Assembly: GCA_010672965.1 (NCBI GenBank) | Contig: JAAHFN010000035.1 | Location: 1 to 64,000 of the forward strand | Direction of reading: 5' to 3' | DNA length: 64,000 nt | Origin: Oscillatoria sp. SIO1A7 | Lineage (GTDB): Bacteria; Cyanobacteriota; Cyanobacteriia; Cyanobacteriales; Laspinemataceae | Shown here: positions 20,105-60,295 of the stretch, one piece after another | How the letters are laid out: every line of letters begins with the position of its first letter | Numbering within the stretch: the first letter of the stretch is position 1 | Notes under the pieces: generated by a model | Told to the model about the DNA's origin: nothing | The model's input: the letters and a program-made list of their open reading frames with translations, nothing else | The model's database searches: none | Position numbers and translations under genes: made by a program

Positions 20105-22222
20105 TTACTTAGAAACCAAAACAACAACGCTGCGACCCGTAACCAAGTAGCTATTAGTAGTTATTTGTATTTCTTGCCCGGGTTCGGCGATATCTCCTGG
20201 GGAAGCTTGGGCCGTATCCACTGCCCTGTACCATTTCCGAGATTTAATTCCTGGGATTTTAAATTCTAGGGGTTCCCAGTACATATTCATCATCACATGA
20301 AGATCGTCTGCTTCATCTAATCCTCCCAGGGTGAAAGCCAGACAGCGAGCATCTGGATCGTCCCAACCGGGATTGCCCAACTGGGTGCCGTGCCAGCAAA
20401 GATCTTTCTGACCGCGCTCGTTTAGCTCGCCCGTAAAAAACCGAGGCCGCTTTACGGTTGAATTGCGCTTGCGGAAGTCGATTATCAGCTTCCAGAACCG
20501 GAACATCTGGCTATTTTTTTCCACCAAGCTCCAATCGAACCAGCTTATGTCGCTATCCTGGCAATAAGCATTATTATTACCTTTTTGGGTGCGCCGCACT
20601 TCATCCCCCATCTCCATCATGGGCACCCCTTGGGACAGCATGAGGATAGTGGCAAAGTTTTTAATTTGGCGATCGCGCAGTTGCTCAATCCCCGGATCGT
20701 TGGTCTCTCCCTCTACCCCACAATTCCAGCTCATATTATCGTCAGCCCCATCCCGGCTTTCTTCCCCATTAGCCTCGTTATGCTTGTCATTATACGAGAC
20801 CAAATCGTTGAGGGTAAAGCCATCGTGGGCGATGATAAAATTAACGCTGTTTACTGGCAGGTGTCCGCTTCTTGACCCGTACATATCCGCACTTCCGGCA
20901 ATGCGACTCGCCACCTCCCCGACCAATCCGGGCTCTCCCTTGACGAAACTCCGCACCGTATCCCGATAGCGCCCGTTCCATTCCGCCCAGCGATATCCGG
21001 GGAAATAGCCCACCTGATACAGTCCTGCTGCATCCCAGGCTTCGGCAATTACTTTAGCATCGCTTAAAATATCGTCTAATTCTATCGCCCAAACAACCGG
21101 CGGGTGTTCCATTGGCGCTCCATCTTCCCCTCGGGACAGCACCGAACCTTCGTCAAAACGGAAACCATCCACATGCATTTCTTCCACCCAGTATCGCAGA
21201 CAATCTACAATCAACTTTTCTGCTACTGGGTGGTTGCAATTAAAAGTATTGCCGCAGCCAGTGTAGTCGTAATAATACTGCTTGTCCTCTTGGACTAGAT
21301 AATAGTATATCTTGTTATCTATCCCCTTGTAGGAAAACAAAGGCCCTTCATGGTTGCCTTCATCCGTATGGTTAAAAACTACATCTAGAATTACTTCTAT
21401 TCCTGCTTTATGCAGGGCTTTCACCATATCCCGAAACTCTTTAACGTGCTGGCAAGCTTCTGGTTTAACGCAATAACTCGGGTGAGGGGCGAAAAAGCTC
21501 ATTGTGCTGTAGCCCCAGTAGTTCTTTAGCTCCTTCCCGTTATAGGTTCGCAGCACTTCTGTATCGTCGAACTCGCAGACGGGCAGCAGCTCTATCGCCG
21601 TTACACCTAACTCTTTAAGATAAGGAATTTTTTCTATAATCGCAGAAAACGTACCTGGATTCTTTACGCCAGACGTAGGCGATTGAGTAAAGCCGCCAAC
21701 ATGCATCTCGTAGATAATCGTTTCGCTCATTGGCCGCTTGAGCAGCTCGTCTCCTTCCCAGTCATAGCCCGAAATATCTATGACTGCGCTTCGCATCGAA
21801 GTTCTCAGATTATCCTTACCGGGAATGCAAGCATCGCCGCGATTCCACAAGTTTTTGTTATTTCCTCTTGCATAGGGATCGATAACCACCTTACTTTTGT
21901 CAAAGCGATGTCCCTCGCTCCAGTTTGAAGGCCCATCAAATCGGTAGGCGTAATGCACTCCGGACTTTAAGCCTCTAACATAGGCGTGCCAAAAGTGAAA
22001 TGTTTTATTAACCGTCGGATCCAGTTCGATTATCTGAGTCGGTTCTGGGCTGTCATGTTCGTCGAACAGCAACAGCTCTACCCCTGTGGCATTCTCTGAA
22101 AAAATAGAGAAGTTTACCCCATCCTTATCCGGTACTGCACCGAGAGGATGCGGCCGACCTGCCTCTACTTTGCAATTAGCCTCTACTTTGCAATTAGTTT
22201 TTTGTACTGAAAAAGCTGTCAT
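20105..22222 (-). CDS. glgX: glycogen debranching enzyme GlgX
   Basis: A 705-residue GH13 isoamylase-type enzyme that cleaves alpha-1,6 branches of (limit-dextrin) glycogen, at about the usual GlgX length. An N-terminal CBM48-like domain (about 20-120) precedes the barrel. The GH13 regions are intact: DVVFNH (I), DGFRFDEGS with the nucleophile Asp (II), IAEAWD with the acid Glu (III) and FIIAHDGFTLNDLVSYNDKHN-type region IV. The N-terminus has an 18-base tandem duplication (NCKVEANCKVEA). The gene probably feeds cytosolic glycogen breakdown; the neighbouring AGE epimerase may act on related sugars. Confidence 0.93.
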   Translation of the reverse strand: MTAFSVQKTNCKVEANCKVEAGRPHPLGAVPDKDGVNFSIFSENATGVELLLFDEHDSPEPTQIIELDPTVNKTFHFWHAYVRGLKSGVHYAYRFDGPSNWSEGHRFDKSKVVIDPYARGNNKNLWNRGDACIPGKDNLRTSMRSAVIDISGYDWEGDELLKRPMSETIIYEMHVGGFTQSPTSGVKNPGTFSAIIEKIPYLKELGVTAIELLPVCEFDDTEVLRTYNGKELKNYWGYSTMSFFAPHPSYCVKPEACQHVKEFRDMVKALHKAGIEVILDVVFNHTDEGNHEGPLFSYKGIDNKIYYYLVQEDKQYYYDYTGCGNTFNCNHPVAEKLIVDCLRYWVEEMHVDGFRFDEGSVLSRGEDGAPMEHPPVVWAIELDDILSDAKVIAEAWDAAGLYQVGYFPGYRWAEWNGRYRDTVRSFVKGEPGLVGEVASRIAGSADMYGSRSGHLPVNSVNFIIAHDGFTLNDLVSYNDKHNEANGEESRDGADDNMSWNCGVEGETNDPGIEQLRDRQIKNFATILMLSQGVPMMEMGDEVRRTQKGNNNAYCQDSDISWFDWSLVEKNSQMFRFWKLIIDFRKRNSTVKRPRFFTGELNERGQKDLCWHGTQLGNPGWDDPDARCLAFTLGGLDEADDLHVMMNMYWEPLEFKIPGIKSRKWYRAVDTAQASPGDIAEPGQEIQITTNSYLVTGRSVVVLVSK

Positions 22223-23691
22223 TTCCCTATTCCATTACCCTTTATTCTGTTTTTCTTCTTCTTTCCCTTCCGCCCCATTCTTATATTCCCTCTCCTTTTC
22301 TTGGAGCCAGCTATTTTCTATAGTCCCTTTCGCTGGTCTAAGCTAAAAGCATACTGTCATTGCAGGCCAGCCGTATTTTTTACTATTTATCCTTTTATAA
22401 AACTTTGCTTATAATCTTACTTAATAGCGATCTGCCTTTTCTTATCTTAAATCTATAAGCAGGGAAAACAATGGAAAAATTCTAGGTAAAATTGGCAATT
22501 TTATCGCTAATACAGTCTAAAGAGCGATTTTGTTTCTTGTCTGGAGGTCAGGGAAGGGAAAAACTGGGGGGACTAGCTTTGGTTCTTGCGATTGAAAACC
22601 CAATCTGTCGGACTATACCTTCACTAAAGATGTTAGGGCCATTTACCTTGGGTGTTTTTCCGCCAACATTTGTGGTGCCAGCAAATCTATTGGCCGGGGA
22701 TAAGGTGGATGGCGACCAAAGCTGTGATATTAGGCTATACGACGGTGTAGAAAGTGCAAAAAGTGCAGAAGATGCAGAAAATTTCTGCATTCAATGTTGA
22801 AGTTCGAGCAAAACAGTGCTAATATGCATTTATAGCTCCCTAGCTAAGGGGTGCATAAAACAGGGCCACCTCTAATCGTGACCCTTGACAGTCGATGAAT
22901 GAAAATGTGTTGTAGGAGGTGTTTTCACTCAAAGAGAAAAAATTTCTCCCTTAAAAACCGGGCTGCGGCGGGTAAGCCCTGGACTTGAGGCAACAAGTCC
23001 ATTGGCTTACTCCAATCGCTAGCTCGGGTGGGAAGATAGCCCACCCCAAAATCCCGCCGATCTCGCACCCTGTCGCGGCAGCGGGTGGGTTTCCTTTGGG
23101 AGAAATTCTCGCTAATTTTTACCACTGGTCTTAATAAGGCTGGAAGTCAAGGAGCGGCTAAGGGGAAGTTCCTACCAGAGTCGTTCGATCGCGATCGCCT
23201 GCCGTTTTTTATAGTGATTGTGCCTATCGCCTGCTACGATCGCTCATTGCTGAATGCTTAAAGGCGAGCAGTAAGCGATCTTAAATTGGGAGCGATCGCT
23301 CTCTAATTTCCGAGGCTCGAAAAGCAAATTTATCTAGTGCAGGGCGGCAGAAATAATAAGCGATCGCCCTCTTGTGGCCGGTAGCCCGGATCCAAAGGTG
23401 TTTTGAATTTTGAATTGCGTGAATGAGAGAATTCCGCGCAGCGGCACTAGATAACTTCTTCTTGCGTTTTGGCTTTTTCCCTTAACTCTAAAAATTGAGT
23501 GAAAACAAATCTGTTCTTGGGATTTAAGTCATCAGATTTTATAGGTTATCTTACACCGCTCTTGGTAACGTTAAGCGGGAATGCGCGAGCAATAGGGCTG
23601 GGCATTCCCGCTTCCATCGGTCAATTCTTGCGAAGAGGGGGAGCGTAGAAATAGCAGTAAATTTTCCTACACTTTAGACTGTAGCCTAAAA
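22223..23691. other. 1.5-kb gene-free region with hairpins
   Basis: I find no convincing gene. A 102-codon frame at 22492-22800 has biased, low-quality composition and an opposing frame over the same bases. Structures seen are a near-palindrome ATGCAGAAA/TTTCTGCAT (22772-22790), a nested hairpin (22972-23010, arms GTAAGCC and GGACTTG) and a 12-bp stem-loop (23573-23613). Several HIP1 sites are scattered through it. Its AT-rich left end should carry the glgX promoter. Confidence 0.5.
23573..23613 (-). terminator. 12-bp stem-loop downstream of the VOC gene
   Basis: Arms 23573-23584 and 23602-23613 (AAGCGGGAATGC and its complement) enclose a 17-base loop. It lies about 80 bases after the VOC stop on the minus strand. 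There is no T run, so factor-independent termination is uncertain. Confidence 0.45.
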
Positions 23692-47799: not shown

Positions 47800-48264
47800 T
47801 TATTGAGGTTTAATTTTTTCCGCAGCTAGCTGTGCGGCGCGAATCACATTTTGGTAGCCGGTATCCCGGGACAAAACTCCATCTACCCAAGTGCGAATTT
47901 CCCCTTCGCTTGGGGATGGATTGCGTTGGAGCAGATCGCTCAAAGACATTAGCAACCCTGGAGTTGAAAAACCGTTCTGAACCGCATGGGCTTCCCAAAA
48001 TGCCTCTTGCAAGGAATTCAACTGGCCGTTTTGCTCCAGACCCTCGACGGTTACGATTTCCGCACCATCCGCTTGCACTGCCAATATAAAAGAGCTTTTT
48101 ACGGATACTCCGTTTAGCAACACAGTACAGGCTCCCGATATAGAACCACCATCGCTTTTTGTTCCTGTTAGACCCAGGCGATCGCGCAGAAAATCTACCA
48201 GCAGCAATCTCGGTTCCACATCTTCGCTATAAGACTTGCCGTTTACTGTCAGTGAAATTTGCAT
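47800..48264 (-). CDS. CoxS-like [2Fe-2S] subunit that has lost its cysteines
   Basis: A 154-residue protein matching the small subunit of xanthine dehydrogenase/aldehyde oxidases from end to end. The N-terminal ferredoxin-like half starts ISLTVNGKSY and contains LLVDFLRDRLGLTGT. The C-terminal helical domain contains LQEAFWEAHAVQNGFSTPG and DTGYQNVIRAA. Eight cysteines normally bind two [2Fe-2S] clusters. Here only C46 remains; the other positions read D38, S43, S58, N97, S100, S132 and D134. The frame is intact and the length normal, so this is not a decayed gene by frame. It lies 17 kb from the Moco subunit gene, an unusual separation. It may keep only a structural role. Confidence 0.85.
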   Translation of the reverse strand: MQISLTVNGKSYSEDVEPRLLLVDFLRDRLGLTGTKSDGGSISGACTVLLNGVSVKSSFILAVQADGAEIVTVEGLEQNGQLNSLQEAFWEAHAVQNGFSTPGLLMSLSDLLQRNPSPSEGEIRTWVDGVLSRDTGYQNVIRAAQLAAEKIKPQ

Positions 48265-48835
48265 AAAATTTACTCTAGCTTTTTGAAGTTATTGGTGGGA
48301 TGCATAGCTGTCTGGGGCGAAGCATCCATTTATCAAAGTTTATTTTATAGCAAAGGAGCTTCCCTGGATGCTGTCGCCCTTACGCCTTAATATAATAGCA
48401 GGGAGCGGTCAGCATAGGGTTCAATGCCCAATTCCCAATGCCCCATTCTCAATGCGAACATGCCCAATGCCACCCACCCCAAGGGCACCCTCCCAAGAGG
48501 GGGAAGTTGCCCAATGCGAACATGCCCAATTTCCAATTTAAAACTCAAAACTCAAAACTCAAAACTCTCCCACCCCCATTCCCCATTTTTATTTGCTATA
48601 AAGTGGCTGACCGTTGACGGTTCAATTCATTTTCAACCATCAACTGCCAACCACCTATGTACTATTCGGCAGGCGCAAGCCTAATTTGTTTTGCGCATTA
48701 CTTTTACTTTTTCCTTCCAAGGGAGGCAAGGGGGACAAGGGAGAGGGGGAGACAAGGGAGATTCAATCTCTCTACACCCTACCCGACACCCGACACCCTA
48801 CCCGACACCCGACACCCGACACCCGACACCCAGTC
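48265..48835. repeat. hairpin element and several arrays
   Basis: Contains GGATGCATAG / GGATGCTGTCGCCC hairpin pieces (48298-48382), AATGCCC and GCGAACATGCCCAAT units (48424-48535), AAAACTC units (48540-48567) and a CCGACAC array (48772-48831) ending four bases from the next stop. A repeat-rich plus-strand frame here is not credible. Confidence 0.75.
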
Positions 48836-49228
48836 TTAGGCTACCGAACCATCTGGGTATTGGGTCATCCCGGCAAAGTGGATCTTAATCTTGCCATCTT
48901 CTATTACCCAGCTATCGGCAAAGCGCATTTTGGCTTCGCCCTGAGGAGTTTGCATAGTAATAGCTTCCACTATCATCAGGGTAGTCGGATTCTCGGTTTC
49001 TGCCCAAAAAGCAATATCCGTTTCCAGCCCCTCAATGCCTAGAATTCCCTGGAAGTGTTCTTTCAGTTCTTCATGGCCTTTGAAATACAGAGGCTTTTTC
49101 ATAAAGCTGCTGATCAGAACGGCATCTTCGGCATATTGACCCAAGAGCCCATCAATATCCTTTTTCAGGATTAACTCGATATGCTCTTTGTACATTTTAC
49201 CCAGAGCAGTATCCGGTACTCCTTTCAT
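48836..49228 (-). CDS. NTF2/SnoaL-like protein 1
   Basis: A 130-residue alpha+beta-barrel protein: helices with HIELILKKDIDGLLGQYAEDAVL, then FKGHEELKEHFQGIL and strands EAKMRFADSWVIEDGKIKIHF. This fits the SnoaL/DUF4440 part of the NTF2-like superfamily, which includes isomerases, cyclases and binding proteins. The active site cannot be assigned. It is one of three such genes in 1.6 kb, all on the minus strand downstream of the ThDP decarboxylase gene. Confidence 0.78.
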   Translation of the reverse strand: MKGVPDTALGKMYKEHIELILKKDIDGLLGQYAEDAVLISSFMKKPLYFKGHEELKEHFQGILGIEGLETDIAFWAETENPTTLMIVEAITMQTPQGEAKMRFADSWVIEDGKIKIHFAGMTQYPDGSVA

Positions 49229-49354
49229 TTTTCTGTTTCTCCCTAGGTTTTATTTAGTGAAATTGTTTTTGGTTCGAGCGATCGCCTTGGTATTTAGGGC
49301 GACTTTGTAAGGATGGAGGATGTTGGGCGCAAGTCCTTCCCGCAGGGTAGGATG

Positions 49355-49473
49355 AAGTGAAAAGTGAAAAGTGAAAAGTGAAAAGTGAAAATTTAAGAGA
49401 ACCAACCATTCCCTAAACTCTACACCCTAAACCCCACACCCTACACCCCACACCCCACACCCTAAACCCTACA
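49355..49473. repeat. AAAAGTG and CCCTAAA/CCCCACA arrays
   Basis: An AAAAGTG run (49355-49390), then CCCTAAA, CCCTACA and CCCCACA units (49410-49473) that include the TAG stop of the second SnoaL-like gene. Confidence 0.85.
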
Positions 49474-49900
49474 GCTCGGCCGAACCCGGGTAATATTTGA
49501 GTTCGTCAACTATGTAAATGGCGATCGCGGGCTTACCAGTAGCAGGCGATCGCGTCACCTTCCAAGTCTGATAAGCATCCAAAACAATCCGCTTGCTGGT
49601 TGCTTCTGGCGGATTCCACACGCTGGCTTCCCACTTCACCACCACTTTGATGTCCGCTTCCTCGCCACTAGACGAGGTTATAGTCACTTCTTTGACCGTA
49701 TGGACTTCATCAAAGAAAATGTTAATAACCTTATTGTACCAACCCGTATATCCTTCAAACCCAGTAACCGTAGCTTCGGGAAAGCGGAACTCCACATCTT
49801 CGGTCATTAGAGGACGATATTCCTCCAAAGGATCGTGAACGTCCAGCTTTTTATACCAATCTACTGCAAACTCTTTAATTTCGGCCTCACTTAGAGCCAT
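49469..49900 (-). CDS. NTF2/SnoaL-like protein 2
   Basis: A 143-residue NTF2-like protein. EIKEFAVDWYKKLDVHDPLEEYRPLMTED forms the helical entry, and FEGYTGWYNKVINIFFDEVHTVKEV lies where SnoaL proteins close the cavity. Strands at the end carry AYQTWKVTRS. Longer and less acidic than its two neighbours. The stop codon sits inside a CCCTAAA-type array. Substrate unknown. Confidence 0.75.
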   Translation of the reverse strand: MALSEAEIKEFAVDWYKKLDVHDPLEEYRPLMTEDVEFRFPEATVTGFEGYTGWYNKVINIFFDEVHTVKEVTITSSSGEEADIKVVVKWEASVWNPPEATSKRIVLDAYQTWKVTRSPATGKPAIAIYIVDELKYYPGSAEL

Positions 49901-50064
49901 AACCTCTTATCCTTTCCTTAATTACTTTTTTTTACAACCAGCGATCGTCTCAATTTATCTATATCAATTCCTCTATCCTTCGCTTTTTTTAAGCCGTATC
50001 GTAACCAATAGAGGAATTGCTATAGGTAACGCAACGCCTTCATCACGCTGCGGTAGGGAAAAAA

Positions 50065-50460
50065 TTATTTCTGGGGTTTCTCCGACGCCCAAAAACCGTA
50101 GTGAATGGCAATCTTGCCATCTTTCATAGTCCAGGCATCCCCGACTTTCATCAGACCCAGAGCGCAAGTAAACTCGGCTTGAAAAAAGATGCTTCCTTCT
50201 GTGCCGTCAAAATCCTCGGTAAAATCGATTTTCTTGACCTCGATGGTGCCGATAACGCTCATGTACTTGTGGAAGAACGCTTTAATTCCATCCCGACCGC
50301 GAACGGTCATGGGGGGTTCTTCATCGTCAAAACCATTGAAAAAAGTAATCAGCACCGCATCGGGGGTATAGTCGTTATCGACCATTGCATCGATTTCGCC
50401 TGCCCCAATCCGTTCTAGGTGCGTGTCAAAAAACGCTTGTCCTGGTTTTTTGTCTGCCAT
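50065..50460 (-). CDS. NTF2/SnoaL-like protein 3
   Basis: A 131-residue protein clearly related to protein 1: FDTHLERIGAGEIDAMVDNDYTPDAVLI and GRDGIKAFFHKYMSVIG are followed by VGDAWTMKDGKIAIHYGFW. The two probably arose by duplication. The cavity-lining acidic residue in YTPDAVL is shared. It is the first NTF2-like gene downstream of the ThDP decarboxylase, 200 bases away. Confidence 0.78.
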   Translation of the reverse strand: MADKKPGQAFFDTHLERIGAGEIDAMVDNDYTPDAVLITFFNGFDDEEPPMTVRGRDGIKAFFHKYMSVIGTIEVKKIDFTEDFDGTEGSIFFQAEFTCALGLMKVGDAWTMKDGKIAIHYGFWASEKPQK

Positions 50461-50620
50461 TTTTTCAGCTCCTGCGATGGATTTGCTTTATTGCAAGTTT
50501 TTATTCCGCGCTTGTGCGGTGTGAGCCCTTTTCTAAAAGAAGCTCTGAAGAGCTTTGTTTGTATAAGCTGTCGCGCATTTAGGCGTCGGGCGGCTCAGAG
50601 CTGAAAGCTTTTGGGCGAAG

Positions 50621-50661
50621 CCCAATGCCCAATGCCCAATGCCCAATGCCCAATGCCCAAT
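50621..50661. repeat. GCCCAAT array at a 3' end
   Basis: Six AATGCCC units ending five bases from the stop codon of the ThDP-enzyme gene. Confidence 0.92.
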
Positions 50662-50666
50662 TCCGA

Positions 50667-52373
50667 TTATTGCCCGCAGCGAAGGCCAATCAGCTCGGGA
50701 TGGACATTACCCTCTAGAACCACATCAATTAAAAATGGCCCGTCATGTTCCACAGCCTTTTTAATCGCTGGACCAATTTCCCCTGGTTCCTTAACGATCG
50801 CTCCTTCAACTCCCATTGCTCGCGCCAGTTCATGGAATTGAATATCTGGCTTCGACAAATCAAAAGCAAGGGGGAAATCATGTTCCGGTATGCTCTCCTC
50901 CTTCCAATACGCCGAGATATTCAACTGAAGCAGCCGGTAAGAGCGATTGTTACAGATGACAACCTTAATATTCGTATTGTGACGAGCTGCACTCCAGAGC
51001 GCCTGGATAGTGTACATACTGCCGCCGTCGCCGGTAAACACCCAAACTGGTTTATCGGGATTCGCCAACTTAGCACCAATACCGCCAGGAATACCTACCC
51101 CCAAAGAACCGCCACGGGTTTGGAAATAATGTCCGGGCTTCGTTGGCGGCTGGTATCTGACAAGAGCCGGATAACAGGTCAAAGCTTCGTCAAAAATAAC
51201 CGTATTATCGTCAAGGTGCGGTGCTAGCTCTTCCATAAACCGAGAAAAATGCAGGGGCACTTCATCCCGCACTTTCTTATCTGCTTCCAGCGCTGCAGCC
51301 AGCTTTTCTTCCTTCGCCTTGCCCAGCTCTTGGGTACGAGCTTCCGCTGCGCTCTTGGCCTCCGGTGTCATTACTTCTTCTAGCGCTTCGGCCAGCTTGG
51401 CCAGGGTCAGCTTCGGATCGCTAACTATCCCCATATCTACCGGATGGTTCTTGGCAATTTCATAAGCGTTCAAATCGATATGAATTACCTTAGAATCCGG
51501 AGCAAAGATATCAGTCAGTTCTGGAAAAACTTCTGGCAATACATAGGTGCCCGCGACCAGATTGACATCGCCTTTTTCCATAGTCGGGCGGCTAGCGTAG
51601 CCAAACATATGGCCCGTTCCCCCTTGGTAGAGCGGGTGGGTGTGGTCCATGTTCAGCTCCCCTGCATCTGCCTCCCAAACCTCTGCGCCGAGCAGTTCTG
51701 CAACTCTAGTTAGCTCTTCTTGCGCTTGGGAATAGGCGATACCATCTCCCACAAAAATCATCGGTTTTTTGCCCGATGTCAGAATATTTGCTGCCTCTTT
51801 AACTACGCTATCTTCTGGCACTACGCGGGTCGAGGGTATAAATGTCGGAACCACTGGCTCGACAACGGGCATATCCAAAATATCTTGGGGCAAGCAGATA
51901 TATACTGGACCCATCGGCGGCGTAGCAGCTATTTTAATTGCTCGTCGGAGCATTCGCAGCAAAGAAGATGGCTCCATTACCATTGCAGACCATTTTGTGA
52001 CCGGCTCCGCCATTGCCACCAAGTCCCCAGCCATCTGAGCGTCCATTGCCTGATACTTAATACCCGCATCTCCCCCAATTACTACCAGGGGTGCATGACC
52101 TCTATAGGCTTGGTATAGAGCGCCGATAGAATTACCCAAGCCGGGAGTGCTGTGGATTTGCACTACTGTCGGCTTTTTGGTTGCTCGCGCATATCCATCC
52201 CCTGCCATCACCGCGATGGTTTCTTGTAACGTGAGGATGTATTTGATTTGTGGATATTCGGCGAGAGCATCTAGGAAACCCTGCTCCACTGTCCCCGGGT
52301 TTCCAAACATATATTCAATGCCATCGGCTACGAGTTGCTCCAGAATGGCAAAGCGACCAGTTTTAGCAGTCAT
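50667..52373 (-). CDS. ThDP-dependent decarboxylase/synthase (benzoylformate decarboxylase-like)
   Basis: A 568-residue three-domain thiamine-diphosphate enzyme. E51 in LTLQETIAVMAGDGYA activates ThDP. H74 in IHSTPGLGN corresponds to the active-site His of benzoylformate decarboxylase. The Mg-ThDP motif GDGGSMYTIQALW to CNN is present near residues 445-480. Its closest style is 2-oxo acid decarboxylation to an aldehyde, or carboligation. It is minus-strand, with a DJ-1 gene upstream and three SnoaL-like genes downstream. A role as aldehyde source for the local oxidoreductases is inference. Confidence 0.88.
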   Translation of the reverse strand: MTAKTGRFAILEQLVADGIEYMFGNPGTVEQGFLDALAEYPQIKYILTLQETIAVMAGDGYARATKKPTVVQIHSTPGLGNSIGALYQAYRGHAPLVVIGGDAGIKYQAMDAQMAGDLVAMAEPVTKWSAMVMEPSSLLRMLRRAIKIAATPPMGPVYICLPQDILDMPVVEPVVPTFIPSTRVVPEDSVVKEAANILTSGKKPMIFVGDGIAYSQAQEELTRVAELLGAEVWEADAGELNMDHTHPLYQGGTGHMFGYASRPTMEKGDVNLVAGTYVLPEVFPELTDIFAPDSKVIHIDLNAYEIAKNHPVDMGIVSDPKLTLAKLAEALEEVMTPEAKSAAEARTQELGKAKEEKLAAALEADKKVRDEVPLHFSRFMEELAPHLDDNTVIFDEALTCYPALVRYQPPTKPGHYFQTRGGSLGVGIPGGIGAKLANPDKPVWVFTGDGGSMYTIQALWSAARHNTNIKVVICNNRSYRLLQLNISAYWKEESIPEHDFPLAFDLSKPDIQFHELARAMGVEGAIVKEPGEIGPAIKKAVEHDGPFLIDVVLEGNVHPELIGLRCGQ

Positions 52374-52600
52374 TTGTTAATTTTCCTTTGTGCTTTTTCC
52401 CCTAGCATCGGTCATTTGTCGGTCAGTCAATTTATTTATTCCTAGGACAAGCGCAACCCCTACCTCCGAAACAGGACAGGCCGGAAGTCTAGCTCCGAAA
52501 CAGGACAGGCCGGACGCCTGTCCTACGGAGAGATAAGGTAGGGATGTTGCTTTGAAAATCCCTTGCTTTAATCCCAGACAAATAACCGATCGCTCTTAAC

Positions 52601-53467
52601 CTACCAACCGTAGCGTTTCAGTCCATCTTCGAGAACCTGAATTAAGAGTTTGCCGCATTCTAGGGAAGAAGCTGTCGAACGGCTGGTGATGAAGGGATAA
52701 TCTACGAGTACAGAGGTTTCGTGACCGACGTTGCCGATAAAAGCACCATCGGGGCCGACTGCATCGCGAAGAATGTATTCTAAGGGATAGAAGGGAGGCC
52801 CAAAGTTAATATAGCCATCTCCAAATCCTTTGTTAGAACCATCGAGGGCATGAGGTCCTTCAAATCCGGTTCCATCTAGATAGTCATAATCGATGGGGTG
52901 TCCGGTGACATGCTTGCCCCAAATAATGCTCTTTTTCTCCCGGATATCCCGTGCGAATGCCAGACAGGTAACTCCGTAGCATTCCGTGGCCACGGGCTTG
53001 TCGAGTTTGACAAAGCCGAGGATTAGTTCGTGCAGTCTGGAGTTGTTGGCCAGATCTATCAACGCGCCACTACCGCCGACAATTACTAGAGCATCGTATT
53101 TGGGCAGCTCTTCCTCGACGATTTTATCCACCGTCTTGTAATAGGCTTCCATGTCCCGCAGATAGGTAGGAGAGCTGGGGTAGGCTCGCAGGGGAAACCA
53201 ATCTGCAAGGCTTTTGGGATTGTCTAGGCGACCGGACTTGTCCAAGGCTACGGTCTTTTTACCCATTTCTTCTGAGGTGACTGACCGACCTAGAGGGGGA
53301 TCGATGTAGCCGGGAGCGCAGCTTACGGAAAGGGGAGTCGGCTTCTTGCCTGTGGGAGTGATAAATTCGATGTTATAGCCCGCACCATCGCAAGCTTCTA
53401 CAGGACCGACTAGCTCTTCGCCCCAGTAGCCCCAGTCCGATACCATTACTAGAATGTTCTTGCTCAC
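52601..53467 (-). CDS. DJ-1/PfpI family protein, long form
   Basis: A 288-residue DJ-1/PfpI-type protein. I start at the GTG at 53467, which has GGAG eight bases upstream and gives MSKNILVMVSDWGYWGEEL; a TTG 12 codons earlier is less likely. The nucleophile is probably C163 in ATECYGVTCLAF, followed by Tyr rather than His, with the acidic partner in WGEEL. Insertions after residue 45 make it longer than the usual 190 residues, similar to the Hsp31/ThiJ-like branch. It may act on glyoxals or other carbonyls. Confidence 0.8.
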   Translation of the reverse strand: MSKNILVMVSDWGYWGEELVGPVEACDGAGYNIEFITPTGKKPTPLSVSCAPGYIDPPLGRSVTSEEMGKKTVALDKSGRLDNPKSLADWFPLRAYPSSPTYLRDMEAYYKTVDKIVEEELPKYDALVIVGGSGALIDLANNSRLHELILGFVKLDKPVATECYGVTCLAFARDIREKKSIIWGKHVTGHPIDYDYLDGTGFEGPHALDGSNKGFGDGYINFGPPFYPLEYILRDAVGPDGAFIGNVGHETSVLVDYPFITSRSTASSLECGKLLIQVLEDGLKRYGW

Positions 53468-54467
53468 TGAATTATCTCCTAAATCAATAATAAGATCGGT
53501 CAATTTGGTTTGGCAATTTTAGCCACTATTTAGAGCTATCGAAATAGCGCTCTATTTTTCGGCTCGCGATCGCAAGCCCATCATCTCGCCCATCATCTCG
53601 TCCTACAGCAATCTCGTCATATTCCCCGATAGGTTTGCCCCTATCGTTTTGCCCCCAATCGGTATTTGCGACCCATACGACGATTTCTGTCTGTAACGAG
53701 CTTTTCTCTTCCCCTTTTCTCGAAAGCTCTTGCCTTCGATTTCTTCTATGTGCTTTTGAGTTGATTGCACTTGGATTGCTCTTTAGCATTAATTGTGGCG
53801 CTGGGATAGAAACCTTGCTATTTTGACTTATCTCGATCGCTATCTCTGATATCATATCGGTTTGAATGCCTCAAAAAAGCTTCTGCGCAAGGACAGGGCG
53901 TCCCGCCTGTCCGCCTGGGCTCTTTGGGACAGGCGGGACGCCCGTCCTACGGGAGATTCCAAATTTTTTCTGTGGGTATTTAACCAGACTTGATATGAGC
54001 TATTAATCCGCCCACGGATTTTAAACCTAGATGTTTTTTCTGCCTTTGTCCTTTGCCTTACCTATATTTTCTTTTAAAGACTATGTTTTATATGTTTTTT
54101 TGTTTATCCGATCGCTACTATCCAGGTAGTTTTGAAAATTCAGCATTTTTTCCGATGCGAACATTCCACCCACCCCCAACCCCTCCCATAAGGGGAGTGA
54201 CCAATGCCCTTATTGGCATTTATTTATTAGCGGCTATGGATTGCTTCTTCGCGAGCCCGCTAATTTTGAGGCCATTCCAATCCTAGATCTCCGATGCCTT
54301 CTGCCGCAATGGAAAAAATCCCGCTCTTATGTAAAATTTTTACGCTACTGATGCCAAGTCCTTGCTTATGCATGACAGGTACGCGCATCCCCTTGCGATC
54401 GCTTCTGAGGATATAGGAGTCAGCTTAAATCGCAAAATAATAGTTAATAATTAACTATTATTGAAGA
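53468..54467. other. 1-kb region with MITE-B and a doubtful frame
   Basis: A minus-strand frame of 109 codons (53526-53855) begins inside MITE-B and carries a duplicated GRDDGRDDG. It includes VVWVANTDWGQND, so it might be a gene remnant, but I do not call it. MITE-B lies at 53849-53996. The remainder (54000-54467) shows no gene. Confidence 0.5.
53849..53996. mobile_element. MITE-B copy (near twin of 11682-11829)
   Basis: Same arms, loop and flanks as the copy 42 kb away, with only a few differences, including the AAAAAAGCTTCTG and CAAATTTTTTCTGTGG segments outside the stem. Confidence 0.85.
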
Positions 54468-55589
54468 TTAAATCCAATCCGGCCCAAACCAAAGACCTGC
54501 TTTGGCTTCTACAGGGGTCTGAGATTCCCAGGCCAGACGAATATACAGAATCTCTCTAGCCATGACGCTTGAAGCTCTTCCTCCTAAAAACTTGGAAATT
54601 AAGGCCAGATTGGGAGGCCAAGCTTCCTCAGTCGAGCTTTCATAGCACAATCCCGGCCAACTTAACAGAGCTTTACATTTTTCCGGGGTGCATAACTGGG
54701 TTTCAACCAAATAGTTCAATAAGGGTTGCCATTGGGCGCTGTCGTCTAAACGCCGATCCAAGTAGCATTCCAAGCTGATTTTTCCTAAATTATCAGAGCC
54801 AAACTCTATATTGAGAACTACTCTATCCACAAGACCTTCTAGCGTCAGAGCGATCGCCTCCCAATCTACTGCCGACCCAAGCCAGCCGCTGTTATTCGAG
54901 TACTGCGAAAGATCCAGCGCCGGAATAGCGCTGACATCTATTCTTATTTTTTTTAGCTTTATCTCTTGTGACCTGACTTGTTGTGAACTGACTTGTTGTG
55001 GCTTTACCTGTTGTTCGCTCCCTATCATCAATCCGAGGTAAAGCACTTGGGCTCCGGTCGGCAATGCTTGCAAACTGGCGAACAAGTTTTCTTGCACTCC
55101 CCCTGGAATCTCTCGGTCGTATATTTGCTCTATTGCCTTCTGCGCCAGCCAACAGCAGTTGGCAGCTCTCTCCACGCCGAAGTGTAACTCGCCCAAGTCT
55201 AACTCGTCGCTCTCTATTGCCCCCAAAAATACACCATTCGGAATCGGAATATCTTGGTGCTTATCTAGATCGAAGTTCAGCCAAATACTCTCTATTCCTT
55301 GCCCCAGAGCAGATATACCTTGCTCCCGAGCCAGAGATAATTTCTGGATGCACTGCCACTCCTGAAAAGAGAGCAGTTGCGAGTCTATCTGCGAGGCTTT
55401 GTCTGGGAGATGGACGGCAAAGCTGGCGGGTTGGATGCCCGCTCCCAAACCGCATTCCAACCAAGAACCCCAGCTTGGCTGCAAAAGATTAGCGAGGCGA
55501 TCGAGTTGCAACAGGGATGCTTCTGAGACTAACTCGGGCGGGAAATAGGGGTTTATAACTCTTAGGTAATCGGCTAGACGGTAATCCAT
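54468..55589 (-). CDS. unknown protein downstream of the NHLP-like gene
   Basis: A 373-residue protein starting at MDYRLADYLRVINPYFPPE; an in-frame TTG at 55664 would add 25 charged residues. Recurring patterns include AIPALDLSQYSNNSGWLGSA, KISLECYLDRRL and CYESSTEEAWPPNL. A Gln/Ser-rich insert (about 205-230) looks like tandem duplication of short codon blocks (QVSSQQVRSQ). No catalytic motif or membrane span stands out. Its position 212 bases after the NHLP-like gene on the same strand suggests a shared function, possibly peptide modification or immunity. I do not recognise the family. Confidence 0.65.
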   Translation of the reverse strand: MDYRLADYLRVINPYFPPELVSEASLLQLDRLANLLQPSWGSWLECGLGAGIQPASFAVHLPDKASQIDSQLLSFQEWQCIQKLSLAREQGISALGQGIESIWLNFDLDKHQDIPIPNGVFLGAIESDELDLGELHFGVERAANCCWLAQKAIEQIYDREIPGGVQENLFASLQALPTGAQVLYLGLMIGSEQQVKPQQVSSQQVRSQEIKLKKIRIDVSAIPALDLSQYSNNSGWLGSAVDWEAIALTLEGLVDRVVLNIEFGSDNLGKISLECYLDRRLDDSAQWQPLLNYLVETQLCTPEKCKALLSWPGLCYESSTEEAWPPNLALISKFLGGRASSVMAREILYIRLAWESQTPVEAKAGLWFGPDWI

Positions 55590-55800
55590 TGGCCAACCCT
55601 GGGGCTTTAAACCGCTCCCTCGCTCTTGCTCTTCTGGCTTTTCTATCTCTGTTGTAAAAATCAATGATCTTAAGAGCCCCTGACTCTTCCCCCAAAAATT
55701 TTGACTCTTAAACTAGAGTCTGTTTTTGCACTATCTTACCCTTATATTCTCGCCTCACCTTCGCCATATTGCTTAATTGGCTTTAATGGGACATTCCAGC

Positions 55801-56040
55801 CTACTTTATTTTATCTTTAACCAAATAGGGCAATACTATATATATTACCTTTTGGCTTTCTTCCACTACTCTGATTTGAATGTCTGCTGGCAGCTCCGCA
55901 CCGAATTCTTTAGCGATCGCTCTTTTCGGACTAGCCATTAATTCCTGCTTAAAGTCAGAATCCTGTAAGGCTTTGGCGATTACTTGTATCTCCAAATCTT
56001 GTTCGCTCTCTCCATTATTCGCACCTAGCCTTGAGTTCAT
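55801..56040 (-). CDS. NHLP-leader-like small protein
   Basis: A 79-residue acidic-to-amphipathic protein with the features of the nitrile-hydratase-like leader peptide family of RiPP precursors. These are DSDFKQELMASPKRAIAKEF (about 28-47) and the strand IQIRVVEESQKVIYIVLP. After LP only about seven residues remain (YLVKDKIK), so a core peptide, if any, is very short and lacks Cys, Ser or Thr. It may be a stand-alone leader-like protein. It precedes an unknown gene and lies downstream of a two-component regulator. Confidence 0.72.
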   Translation of the reverse strand: MNSRLGANNGESEQDLEIQVIAKALQDSDFKQELMASPKRAIAKEFGAELPADIQIRVVEESQKVIYIVLPYLVKDKIK

Positions 56041-56371
56041 TCCCGATTGCCAGCTAATTTACAACCCAGATTCCCAAATCTCTAATCTTATACTGTTACT
56101 GCTTTAAATATACTTACTTAATGTCAGTATATTTTTATTAAAAATAATTTGAATATATAATTTATCGTTGCTTGCCCTAAAAAACATAATAGCGATTTCT
56201 CGATCGATTCGACAATGGATATTTTTACGATTCGATTGGGAATTTTCTCGATCGGTTCGTTTATAATTCTCTGTTCACTGAAAACGCAGTTGGCGACCTG
56301 TTATAAATTATAAGTCATCTTGACAACCAATAACCTATAACCGATCGCCAATAAATTAAATCCTCTCATTT
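56041..56371. promoter_or_regulatory. AT-rich region with inverted repeat
   Basis: Between the response regulator and the NHLP-like gene. AAATATACT (56106-56114) pairs with AGTATATTT (56126-56134) across an 11-base loop, 66 bases upstream of the NHLP-like start. It could be an operator for the AraC-type regulator (inference). No -35/-10 pair is clear. Confidence 0.4.
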
Positions 56372-57208
56372 CTAAGATAAGCTTTCTAGAGGATCGCCCG
56401 CTCGCTGTGCGTCCCTCCAAGTTTTTGGTGGTTGTTGGTGAACTTTACGAAAATGCTTGACAAAGTGACCCGTATCCACATACCCCACAATCTCTGCAAC
56501 CTTGTGAACTGTCAATTCCGTTTCTATCAAGAGGTGACGCGCCTGGAACATTCGGCGTTGGACAATCCATTGATACAATGTTTGTCCGGTCAAGCGACGT
56601 ACCAAGCTAGTTAAGTAGGATGGCGAGTAGCCGAAAGCTTTTGCAATCTCGTTTAAACCTATGGATTGCGGGTAGTTTTCCTCTACGAAAGCAAATATCT
56701 CCTGCAACTGGCGGTGTTCGGGAAACTGGAAGGGAATCGGAGTTTTGGTCAGAGCCTCCGGTTCTTGCTCCCGAGGTATTGGCACTTTTTTATTTGGCTC
56801 CGCAACATTCTTGGCCGCCCCGTATAGCTGCTTCAGCAAGTTTCGCGATCGCAACCGAGCGGCGATCGCTTCTACCAACTCCACTGTAGTAAAGGGCTTG
56901 CTAAGATAATCATCGGCTCCCAATGCCATCCCCTGACGTTGTGCTAGCCGGTCGTTCTTCGCCGATAGAAAAATAAGCGGAATAGTTGCCGTAACTATAT
57001 CTTTTCTTAAAGCACTCAGTACCCCATACCCATCTAGCTTTGGCAAAACTATATCGCATAGTACGAGATCTGGCTGATGGATATGCGCTTGTTCCACCCC
57101 GCTCCGGCCGTTATTAGCCTCCACAACACTAAAACCCTCAGACTCCAAGCAGTCCGCAATCATGTCTCGGGTTGTTGCTTCGTCTTCGATTACCAAAATT
57201 TTGCTCAT
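56372..57208 (-). CDS. response regulator with AraC-type output domain
   Basis: A 278-residue two-component regulator. The receiver (1-122) has phospho-acceptor D52 (LCDIVLP), acidic pair E9/D10-type start and K104 (LSKPF). A linker leads to an AraC/XylS double helix-turn-helix (about 170-270) with NEIAKAFGYSPSYLTSLVRRLTGQTLYQW and VAEIVGYVDTGHFVKHFRK. It should bind DNA after phosphorylation. The histidine kinase gene upstream, on the same strand, is the likely partner. Targets are unknown; the NHLP-like gene next to it is the nearest candidate. Confidence 0.9.
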   Translation of the reverse strand: MSKILVIEDEATTRDMIADCLESEGFSVVEANNGRSGVEQAHIHQPDLVLCDIVLPKLDGYGVLSALRKDIVTATIPLIFLSAKNDRLAQRQGMALGADDYLSKPFTTVELVEAIAARLRSRNLLKQLYGAAKNVAEPNKKVPIPREQEPEALTKTPIPFQFPEHRQLQEIFAFVEENYPQSIGLNEIAKAFGYSPSYLTSLVRRLTGQTLYQWIVQRRMFQARHLLIETELTVHKVAEIVGYVDTGHFVKHFRKVHQQPPKTWRDAQRAGDPLESLS

Positions 57209-57859: not shown

Positions 57860-60295
57860 CTAGGAGCTATTTAGGGGCAATGTAACGGTGAATGTTGTAC
57901 CCTTGTCGAGCTGACTCGAACAGGTAATCTGACCGCCATGCAAGCGGACAAACTTTTTCACAACTGCCAATCCTACGCCGTACCCAGGGATATCGCCCAC
58001 ATTCTCTCCTCTGTGAAAGGGTTCAAAGAGTTTTTGCCTATCTGCCCAAAGAATCCCAATACCTCGGTCTTCTATCTGAAAAGTTATCTGACCGCCTATT
58101 GTAGCGCAGGCGTTTTTCGCATCTTGGTTTGTAGTGCAAGCTTCTTCTAATGTAGGGTCATCCCCCTCTTCTGGACTGAAGGCTACCTTGAGAAAAACCG
58201 GACTTTCTGGGGCGGAGTATTTACAGGCATTCGAGAGTAGGTTGGTCAGAATTGGTTCCAGCAGTTTTGCATCTAAGTTGAATAGCTTTGGACTATTAGG
58301 CGTATTAACTCTAGGGTTATTCTCTTCTGTTATATCCTGTATGTTTTTTCCTATCGGTGTTTCGGCGTTTTTTACTGTAGCCTCTAGTTCGCGATCGCCC
58401 TGCGTCTTCCTAGCAAAGTCACCCTGCCTATAAATAAAGTGAATTGGATGTCCGGCGCTTGTTGGTTCCAGCTCTATCGAAGCTACTATCTCCTGGCAAA
58501 ACCGAATTAAGTCTAGGGGTTGGGGGTCGTATTTAATCTTGCCTGCATCGGCACACCCCATCACCAAAACATCATTCAATAATTTGTTGATTTGATGGAC
58601 TGCAGATTGGATGCGAGCCAAATACTTAGATTTTTTCTCTTTTTTCCAGCCATCTCCGTAGTTTTGGAGAGAACTGGCTGCAAAGGATATTATGTTTAGG
58701 GGCTTGCCGAACTCGTGGGAGAGCATGGACACTAAATGCGATCGCCACTGGCTCAGTTCTTTTTCCTGAGCTAACGCCCTATGAACCGCCAGCTCTGCTT
58801 TTTTGCGATCGGTAACATCTACTGCTATGCCCAGCACCGCCATTTCCCCTTCTATTTTTATTTTGCTAATCCAACAGTCCAGCCAGCGATCCTCCCCGCT
58901 CTTGGTTACAAAGCGGAATTCTTTATGCTGCGGATTATTTTCCTCTTGTTCTACTACTTCCGAGTCCTCGCTAACTTCCATCAACTGTTGGAACTTGCTA
59001 TTTTCTAGAAGTTCTGGACTCGAATAACCCGTAATAGTTGTCCCGGCTGGATTGACGTAGCGAAACCTCTCTTTGCGATCTATATATATAATCGCATCGG
59101 TCATCTCGGCCAAAACACGAAACTGTGCTTCGCTTTGACGCAGTTCGCTTTGGGCGCGCTCGCATACCGTAATATCCCGAAAAGTCCAGACCGTACCGAT
59201 AATCCTCTTGCCCAACTTCTGAGTTCTGGAGGAGCAATCGAACATGCGCCCATTTTTCAATCGCAAAATCTCTGGTTTTTCCCCCTCGGTGCTGCCATGT
59301 ATTGCCTGAAATAGACGAATCGCCTCCGCTCGTTCGCACTGGAGCGCTAAAAATTCTAGCCATTGTTTGGAATCGACCACAGCTCTGATTCTCTCGGGAA
59401 TCTCCCACATCTCCACTAGACTTTGGTTAAAAGCCGTGACTGTGCCCTCTGTACTCAATCCTAAAACCCCGTCTGCTAAGGATTCCAAGGTCGATTGCAC
59501 TAGGCAAAAGGATTCATCTGGATTTAATTCATCTGGATTTAATTCATCTGGATTTAATTCATCTGGATTTAATTCATCTGGATTTAATTCATCTGGATTT
59601 AACTTAGGAGACTTCTGGGAACCCTTAGTCCCCTCCTGGGAGGGTTTTTCCCCGATCGCAGTACCCGCCCCCATACTCCCGAGAGGGGGCATCGCGCCTA
59701 AGCGATCGCTACTCTCCCATTGGAGCCTTTCGTTTTCCTCGGTCAAGTCTCGACCAATTACCTGGAGTCGAACTACAGTTCCCGCCCCGTTTCTAATGGC
59801 TTTTACAAATAAATCGATTATGGCCGAACTGCCGTCAAAGCGTTGCAAGGGAACTTGGCCGCGAACCGAACGACCTTTTTGAGCAGTAGCGATCGCCCAT
59901 AGCAACCATTGCTTTGCTGCTTCCTGCGACCACCAGCGCGTTTGCCAAATCGGATCTCCCTTCGATCCCGCCTCTACTCCCCCCAGCTCCAGGGCAGCTT
60001 TATTCGCCTCTATGAGAGTACCTCCAGGGCAGAGCGTCCACTCTAGCAGCGGATCTCCGTCGTTTTCTTCCCCACAGGTTTTTACCTCTTTGGAGCCGAG
60101 GGCGATCGCTACTTTTTCTTGGTCGGCCAGTTCGAGTTGCAGCCTTTTGACTAACTCCTGTACTTCTGGCGTTTCCAGTTCTGGCGTTTCCAGTTCTGGC
60201 GTTTCCAGCTCTGGCTTTTTGGTCCGTGAGGCACTTTCTCGTGCCAAGCCATTAATGGCCCAGTTCCATTTAATCCCAAAAGTCTCAAAAGTCAT
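57860..60295 (-). CDS. multi-PAS sensor histidine kinase
   Basis: An 811-residue kinase without membrane spans. An N-terminal helix with three ELETP repeats precedes three PAS-like domains (about 75-195, 270-390, 395-510). HisKA has the phospho-acceptor His in SMLSHEFGKPLN (near residue 530). The HATPase domain has NLLSNACKYS, EDRGIGI, FEPFHRG and GYGVGLAVV. Between PAS 1 and 2 are six copies of LNPDE. It probably phosphorylates the AraC-type regulator encoded 650 bases downstream. PAS ligands cannot be read from sequence. Confidence 0.9.
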   Translation of the reverse strand: MTFETFGIKWNWAINGLARESASRTKKPELETPELETPELETPEVQELVKRLQLELADQEKVAIALGSKEVKTCGEENDGDPLLEWTLCPGGTLIEANKAALELGGVEAGSKGDPIWQTRWWSQEAAKQWLLWAIATAQKGRSVRGQVPLQRFDGSSAIIDLFVKAIRNGAGTVVRLQVIGRDLTEENERLQWESSDRLGAMPPLGSMGAGTAIGEKPSQEGTKGSQKSPKLNPDELNPDELNPDELNPDELNPDELNPDESFCLVQSTLESLADGVLGLSTEGTVTAFNQSLVEMWEIPERIRAVVDSKQWLEFLALQCERAEAIRLFQAIHGSTEGEKPEILRLKNGRMFDCSSRTQKLGKRIIGTVWTFRDITVCERAQSELRQSEAQFRVLAEMTDAIIYIDRKERFRYVNPAGTTITGYSSPELLENSKFQQLMEVSEDSEVVEQEENNPQHKEFRFVTKSGEDRWLDCWISKIKIEGEMAVLGIAVDVTDRKKAELAVHRALAQEKELSQWRSHLVSMLSHEFGKPLNIISFAASSLQNYGDGWKKEKKSKYLARIQSAVHQINKLLNDVLVMGCADAGKIKYDPQPLDLIRFCQEIVASIELEPTSAGHPIHFIYRQGDFARKTQGDRELEATVKNAETPIGKNIQDITEENNPRVNTPNSPKLFNLDAKLLEPILTNLLSNACKYSAPESPVFLKVAFSPEEGDDPTLEEACTTNQDAKNACATIGGQITFQIEDRGIGILWADRQKLFEPFHRGENVGDIPGYGVGLAVVKKFVRLHGGQITCSSQLDKGTTFTVTLPLNSS
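59511..59600. repeat. six 15-bp in-frame repeats in the kinase
   Basis: Unit GATTTAATTCATCTG, identical in each copy, encodes LNPDE six times. A second 15-bp repeat (three copies of ELETP) lies near the start of the gene at about 60165-60215. Confidence 0.95.

Follow-up and report, generated by a model that had tools for sequence, protein, structure and literature searches.

What purpose is served by a RiPP leader domain that has almost no peptide behind it? RiPP leaders and their enzymes are commonly assumed to exist for the core peptide, and a Gly-Gly cleavage motif and a hypervariable core are among the marks given for the NHLP family by Haft et al. (2010, PMC2887384). The window analyzed here, a 64,000-nucleotide stretch of DNA from Oscillatoria sp. 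SIO1A7, contains a gene in which an earlier note, made from the sequence alone, recognized a 79-residue protein with the NHLP pattern, lying with a 373-residue protein of no known family. The note left two readings, either a minimal RiPP-like system or a leader-domain protein with a new use. Here, we describe a comparative analysis of the two proteins, their relatives, and the regulatory genes that accompany them. The features discussed are collected in Table 1.

Table 1. Features of the window that bear on the coreless leader gene and its partner
Feature	Positions	Strand	Basis
Coreless NHLP leader-domain protein, 79 aa	55801..56040	-	TIGR03793; no GG; 8-residue tail after VLP
PT-barrel (alpha-beta-beta-alpha) prenyltransferase-family protein	54468..55664	-	AlphaFold2 fold, profile, tree, residue losses
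CCAA-N17-CCATTG element upstream of NHLP gene, candidate AraC-type direct-repeat operator	56213..56239	-	Conserved in three genomes
REC + AraC-HTH response regulator	56372..57208	-	Pfam; ortholog beside pair in all three genomes
PAS sensor histidine kinase, scytonemin-HK-like	57860..60295	-	Pfam/NCBIfam; kept next to pair in L016
Non-RiPP neighbors downstream of pair: DJ-1/PfpI, ThDP enzyme, three SnoaL-like, 2Fe-2S protein (by eye)	47800..53503	-	Same order in L016; putative link to pair only
Second element copy	22469..22495	-	247 bp upstream of glgX-like gene; one mismatch to longer form
glgX/isoamylase-like gene, possible co-regulated target	20105..22222	-	CBM_48 + alpha-amylase + isoamylase C

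Results

A leader-domain protein that ends before its cleavage site

The 79-residue protein carries the NHLP pattern that had been proposed for it, since it matches the NCBIfam model TIGR03793 (leader_NHLP) with 72.1 bits (E 2.5e-20), well above the cut-off of 50.9; Pfam NHase_alpha additionally matches with 34.5 bits. The TIGR03793 match spans positions 3-61 of the 77 in the model, the end of which is missing, and only eight residues stand behind the conserved VLP, the protein ending before the Gly-Gly site. No Gly-Gly motif is found in the open reading frame and no GG-core in any of the three frames inspected behind its stop, so that the description "almost no core" is an apt one. A frame-shifted core was rejected on the same three frames. 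Within the 9.08-Mb genome this is the only NHLP above the cut-off, and no Nif11 reaches its own. Two sub-threshold NHLP-like precursors, with tails ending in CCCC and CAC, are present in the same genome (G000:C46:21306-21446 and G000:C13:69809-69955), the second of them near a protein resembling a TOMM leader-binding protein.

The partner belongs to a family of RiPP-linked prenyltransferases

The partner gene reads 54468-55589(-) from an ATG (373 aa) or 54468-55664(-) from a TTG (398 aa). The 373-residue protein matches no family in Pfam, NCBIfam, or PHROGs, and a genome scan with its single sequence returned no relatives; a scan with an alignment yielded ten loci. AlphaFold2 models built from 10 sequences (pLDDT 79) and from 46 of the 56 listed family sequences (pLDDT 88.7, pTM 0.88) both consist of repeated alpha-beta-beta-alpha units with ten main strands, and the structure prediction that the earlier note had suggested for the protein with its leader returns, for the 373-residue protein alone, a PT-barrel fold. 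The best solved structures in a Foldseek comparison are indole and other aromatic prenyltransferases (best E 1.1e-6, with 40 matches at E 0.001 or better). VIA, a second aligner, gave best Z values of 17.2 and 17.1 for the two models, and all 50 of the 50 matches listed each time are PT-barrel enzymes. Searching PDB sequences with the family profiles produced no usable match: the 10-row alignment brought up an anti-CRISPR chain (E 0.11) and a kinase (E 1.4), the 46-sequence alignment the kinase alone (E 0.81). The fold is known from structure comparison only.

By fold and family membership the partner is a PRENYLTRANSFERASE-family protein, and its family is one of cyanobacterial RiPP-linked PT-barrel prenyltransferases that includes the enzyme of the Moorena mpp lanthipeptide cluster. 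The claim that it has no known family thus holds for the models of Pfam, NCBIfam, and PHROGs and fails for homology; the partner could be identified because it is recognizable as a RiPP prenyltransferase by its fold and family. The link to mpp runs through locus L022, in which a precursor with a 77-aa leader and the core ACWRWSG, matching the published MppE, is directly followed by a family member in the company of LanM, two UPF0489 (arginase-like) genes, and a Trp halogenase. Judging from MppE and this gene content, without MppC's own sequence, we take L022 to be the published mpp cluster. Its protein, numbered from TTG, has Phe at 340 as published for MppC and Leu, not Trp, at 336; it is a row of the family profile, and the same profile finds the window protein. 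Wakeel et al. (2025, PMC12715784) showed MppC to be a geranyltransferase with the alpha-beta-beta-alpha fold and to depend on its Nif11 leader.

Family members occur in 12 of the 59 genomes first examined and, by profile search, in 52 of 388 genomes of the order (the window's own genome included in each count). Six fragments were dropped from the 63 matches, leaving 57 domains for the tree and the residue counts. A Nif11 or NHLP leader reading frame lies within 3 kb of 41 of these 57 domains and, for 24 of them, within 500 bp on the same strand. Genes around the members encode class II lanthionine synthetases (LanM), YcaO, radical SAM, lasso-type, and other RiPP proteins, as well as methyltransferases, 2OG oxygenases, and metallo-beta-lactamase-fold proteins. 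The family also contains fusions to a 2OG-Fe(II) oxygenase (scanned in L024 and L078), a methyltransferase (L060), or a squalene-hopene-cyclase-like domain (L098 and L099), the last of which is context for isoprenoid chemistry. Prenyltransferase-cyclase fusions were reportedly described by Hubrich in 2024. Long C-terminal extensions are also present in L059 and L074 (2OG-Fe(II) group) and in L071, L073, and L079 (methyltransferase group), as assigned by length and place in the tree only.

Several observations concern the precursors near these enzymes. Nif11 precursors near L018, L024, L059, L065, L067, L074, L076, L078, L084, and others very often end in Trp (KW, KIKW, SQW), a candidate prenylation site. 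Directly 5' of intact members at L060, L071, L073, L079, L081, and L085 there is a short Nif11 that has no GG and mostly an aromatic end; some of these members carry an extension of methyltransferase size, a large TPS-secretion-domain protein often comes after them, and the arrangement is a possible minimal type of prenylated RiPP. Other members lie within lasso-type clusters (L020, L021, L061, L068, L077, L092) where the opposite strand encodes a small Nif11-like protein; at lasso-type loci the Asn-synthase, P450, and PqqD labels were assigned by eye, the methyltransferase (L021) by Pfam.

The coreless pair recurs in two further genomes

A coreless NHLP gene together with a barrel gene was found in the window, at L016 in Oscillatoriaceae cyanobacterium M33_DOE_052 (G001), and at L083 in Coleofasciculus sp. 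S288 (G266). In all three genomes the NHLP gene lies 65-137 bp upstream of the barrel gene on the same strand. The earlier note had staked its proposal on the two genes occurring together elsewhere and had suggested a genome-neighborhood search; the recurrence of the pair in two genomes beyond the window leaves that proposal standing. The 62- and 84-aa homologues of the 79-aa leader score 67.6 and 66.9 bits with TIGR03793, both above the cut-off. GG is absent from all three leaders, which have 8, 4, and 12 residues after VLP, and their tails (YLVKDKIK, YRDN, and HRADKMPYKNGD) contain one Tyr each and have no clear common motif.

The three barrel proteins are 40-45% identical and form one clade (support 100/99 in the tree of 57), with end branches of 0.45, 0.72, and 1.02 changes per column (median 0.31). 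Searches for further clade members gave none besides G001 among 14 genomes of the host family, none besides S288 among 20 of the Coleofasciculus family, and none besides the window's own in a 388-genome sample of the class, where the best others have 34-35% identity. L083 lies on a 4.7-kb contig of a genome that is 67% complete. Among the three loci, pN is 0.20-0.29 for the NHLP gene against a saturated pS of 0.74-0.90, and 0.36-0.41 for the barrel gene against a saturated pS of 0.74-0.78; the pN of the regulator is likewise far below its saturated pS. Leader and barrel genes are under purifying selection and do not look dead.

Residues invariant elsewhere in the family are lost in the clade

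Ten ionic or tyrosine positions (D/E/R/K/Y) are invariant or nearly so elsewhere in the family: E45, D56, E105, D107, R191, R216, E274, K351, K363, and Y365. Nine of them fall on predicted strands of the AlphaFold2 model and R191 one residue past a strand; from these places and from the general architecture of PT-barrel enzymes, the ten positions are predicted to line the barrel.

In a leave-one-out count the window protein has lost five of the ten positions, L083 three, and L016 two. The window losses relative to the family consensus are D56S, E105N, R191S, K351R, and Y365G; K351R, like D56N, is a mild change. Arg191 is gone from all three clade members (Ser in the window and L016, Tyr in L083), probably through a single event. 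Among the 52 other members, 49 show no loss; a single position, a further Lys (K304), is gone in each of L098 and L099, and truncation removes three from the frame-shifted L082. Two long-branch paralogues, L100_6364 and L101_3393, were held outside the 52; they show zero losses despite an equally low overall retention (0.70), which argues that the losses of the clade do not reflect general divergence alone. E45, R216, E274, and K363 of the ten, as well as K304, are kept in all three clade members, and L016 has lost only two positions; diphosphate binding and catalysis may for these reasons survive.

A regulator and an upstream element accompany the pair

The response regulator and kinase that the earlier note had placed next to the pair are a REC + AraC-HTH protein and a PAS kinase, whose genes lie upstream of it in the same orientation. 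The regulator is 67-68% identical to its ortholog in G001 and, over the last 173-177 residues, 65-66% identical to that in G266, which is divergent from the pair and has no recognizable receiver domain. The next best relative in 388 genomes of the order has 53% identity, and among the genomes searched the ortholog is present only in the three that have the pair. Related regulators lie near intact family members (45-49% identity at L025, L057, and L086; 31% at L063). Others, at 52-53% (L168 and L169, in G023 and G090), adjoin a tandem-NHLP precursor (about 190 aa) in which GG and core are intact, with no family member within about 1.5 kb. Because its relatives are found near intact members and near a GG-core tandem NHLP, the regulator type looks like an old regulator of RiPP loci. 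The histidine kinase scores 415 bits with the scytonemin kinase model, under the cut-off of 865, and its N-terminal part contains ELETP and LNPDE units repeated in tandem and in frame.

Each of the three genomes has the sequence CCAA-N17-CCATTG upstream of its NHLP gene, and a longer form, CCAA-N11-AAWTWTCCATTG, matches there without a mismatch every time; a backward-pattern control has no match in the three genomes. The element was first found by eye in a stretch common to L016 and L083 and then tested, so that its statistics are after the fact. The three upstream regions have no exact 9-mer in common. The bare CCAA-N17-CCATTG is not specific to the clade, being present at other loci too, and the longer pattern with one mismatch also matches elsewhere in the three genomes. 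A spacing of 21 bp between its two half-sites would fit binding by an AraC-type dimer. The second copy in the window, upstream of the glgX-like gene, has a counterpart in G001 at the same place before an ortholog that is 79% identical.

Among the proteins scanned, the wider surroundings appear to be of a non-RiPP character. LanM, YcaO, radical SAM, and Asn-synthase-type domains are absent from the ten proteins scanned at 48.8-60.3 kb and from the ten at 11.9-46.4 kb, and the neighborhood held in common with G001 comprises a ThDP enzyme, DJ-1/PfpI, SnoaL-like proteins, a molybdopterin oxidase, an OprB porin, and a GMC oxidoreductase. At 61190-63997(+) the window encodes a DnaX homologue with, as judged by eye, a putative in-frame intein (CLTGDSL ... 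LLVHNC).

Discussion

In the clade the core is gone and the ionic set is incomplete, but the two genes remain open, adjacent, and beside the same AraC-type regulator. These product and active-site losses, in a pair that has been kept together with its own regulator, point to the probable reuse of a natural-product module for a different purpose. The explanation that we place first, with a chance just short of even, is that a RiPP prenylation module no longer makes a RiPP and has been kept as a leader-barrel protein pair under two-component control. The RiPP pathway would have been decommissioned and the leader and barrel retained. We infer that the NHLP domain may still bind the barrel protein in the way that leaders dock on MppC. 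Signaling by the kinase/REC-AraC system, acting at the CCAA-N17-CCATTG element, would switch on production of the complex; this complex could bind a ligand, such as an isoprenoid diphosphate or another hydrophobic molecule, or a protein partner, and no core peptide would be modified. A more specific proposal, in which precursor and prenyltransferase were converted together into a non-catalytic signaling complex, an isoprenoid-diphosphate-type sensor with two-component wiring and a regulon that includes glycogen debranching, seems to us doubtful.

Of the two readings offered at the outset, a new use for a leader-domain protein is a better fit than a minimal RiPP-like system: none of the three leaders has a core or a cleavage site, and the partner lacks residues that 49 of 52 other members retain in full. 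Two readings with an active enzyme retain some weight since E45, R216, E274, K304, and K363 are kept. In the first, which is unlikely, the barrel prenyltransferase would prenylate Tyr or Lys in the 4- to 12-residue NHLP tail and so yield an uncleaved, lipidated small protein. The family offers a parallel in the members directly behind a short GG-less Nif11, mostly with aromatic ends (AYF, YFY, VVW, NYY, EVY), where the enzymes keep all ten ionic residues; the single Tyr of each coreless tail is a possible target, and E45, R216, E274, and K363 are retained in the clade. Against this reading, the ionic set is eroded in the coreless-NHLP clade only, the tails lack a clear common motif, and replacement of Trp82 by Tyr or His was not tolerated by MppC (PMC12715784).

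In the second, which we consider improbable to a like degree, the NHLP protein would be a trans-activating subunit of an enzyme acting on an outside substrate, either a small molecule made by the ThDP/SnoaL/molybdopterin-oxidase neighbors or a peptide encoded elsewhere. Most PT-barrel enzymes act on small aromatics, and the neighboring genes are co-directional and keep their order in L016. The contig of L083 is too short to show neighbors, however, and a peptide substrate would have to come from a genome with no Nif11 and no second NHLP above the cut-off. The ionic losses of the clade also speak against an active enzyme, and MppC is inactive with its leader in trans and rejects free L-Trp (PMC12715784). 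Finally, that the locus is a dying former RiPP locus with a coreless leader and an eroded enzyme as vestiges is very unlikely: hallmark features are lost in both halves and the end branches are long, but the frames are open in three lineages of two families, pN is low against saturated pS, and the upstream element and regulator are conserved.

If the preferred reading of a retained leader-barrel pair is true, the leader-enzyme interface serves some purpose apart from the core peptide, and the pair is a natural minimal system for studies of leader docking. For genome mining it is a warning that a peptide product should not be presumed from an NHLP match beside a prenyltransferase-like gene. The MppC-type family itself is broad, is modeled in neither Pfam nor NCBIfam, and includes fusions to oxygenase, methyltransferase, and terpene-cyclase-like domains.

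Comparison with known systems

Cyanobactin prenyltransferases (TruF/LynF/PagF, TIGR04445) have the PT-barrel fold, are leader-independent, and prenylate peptides as the MppC-type family does. The latter is nevertheless separate from them as judged by sequence: TIGR04445 matches neither the window protein nor any of the 10 rows of the first family alignment up to E 1, and hhalign of the family profile against the cyanobactin prenyltransferases of this genome and of Coleofasciculus gave a probability of 0.2. Oscillatoria sp. SIO1A7 has two genes of the TruF/LynF type, one adjoining a gene for a TPS-secretion-like protein (G000:C154:24208-25035) and one broken (G000:C161:101322-102153). The aromatic and indole prenyltransferases IptA, PriB, CymD, and DMATS1 have the same fold as the 373-residue protein (Z 16-17 over 274-298 aligned residues) and differ from it in sequence, with 7-13% identity; the 373-residue protein has no Pfam match, and the aromatic enzymes work without a leader peptide.

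The 79-residue protein has the same NHase-alpha-derived leader domain as NHLP RiPP precursors, with a score above the curated cut-off, and differs from them in having neither Gly-Gly motif nor hypervariable core. We found no report of a coreless or repurposed NHLP, or of a coreless NHLP with a prenyltransferase relative, in the open-licence PMC literature. Among the closest known systems is MppC/MppE of Moorena producens, which has in common with the window pair the sequence family, the PT-barrel fold, and a leader-domain partner encoded next to the enzyme. The window pair departs from it in having an NHLP rather than a Nif11 leader, in lacking core, GG, and, among the proteins scanned, LanM, in the loss of ionic residues, and in its apparently non-RiPP neighborhood. 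The enzyme family has thus already been published through MppC, and what is new is the coreless and apparently decommissioned pair.
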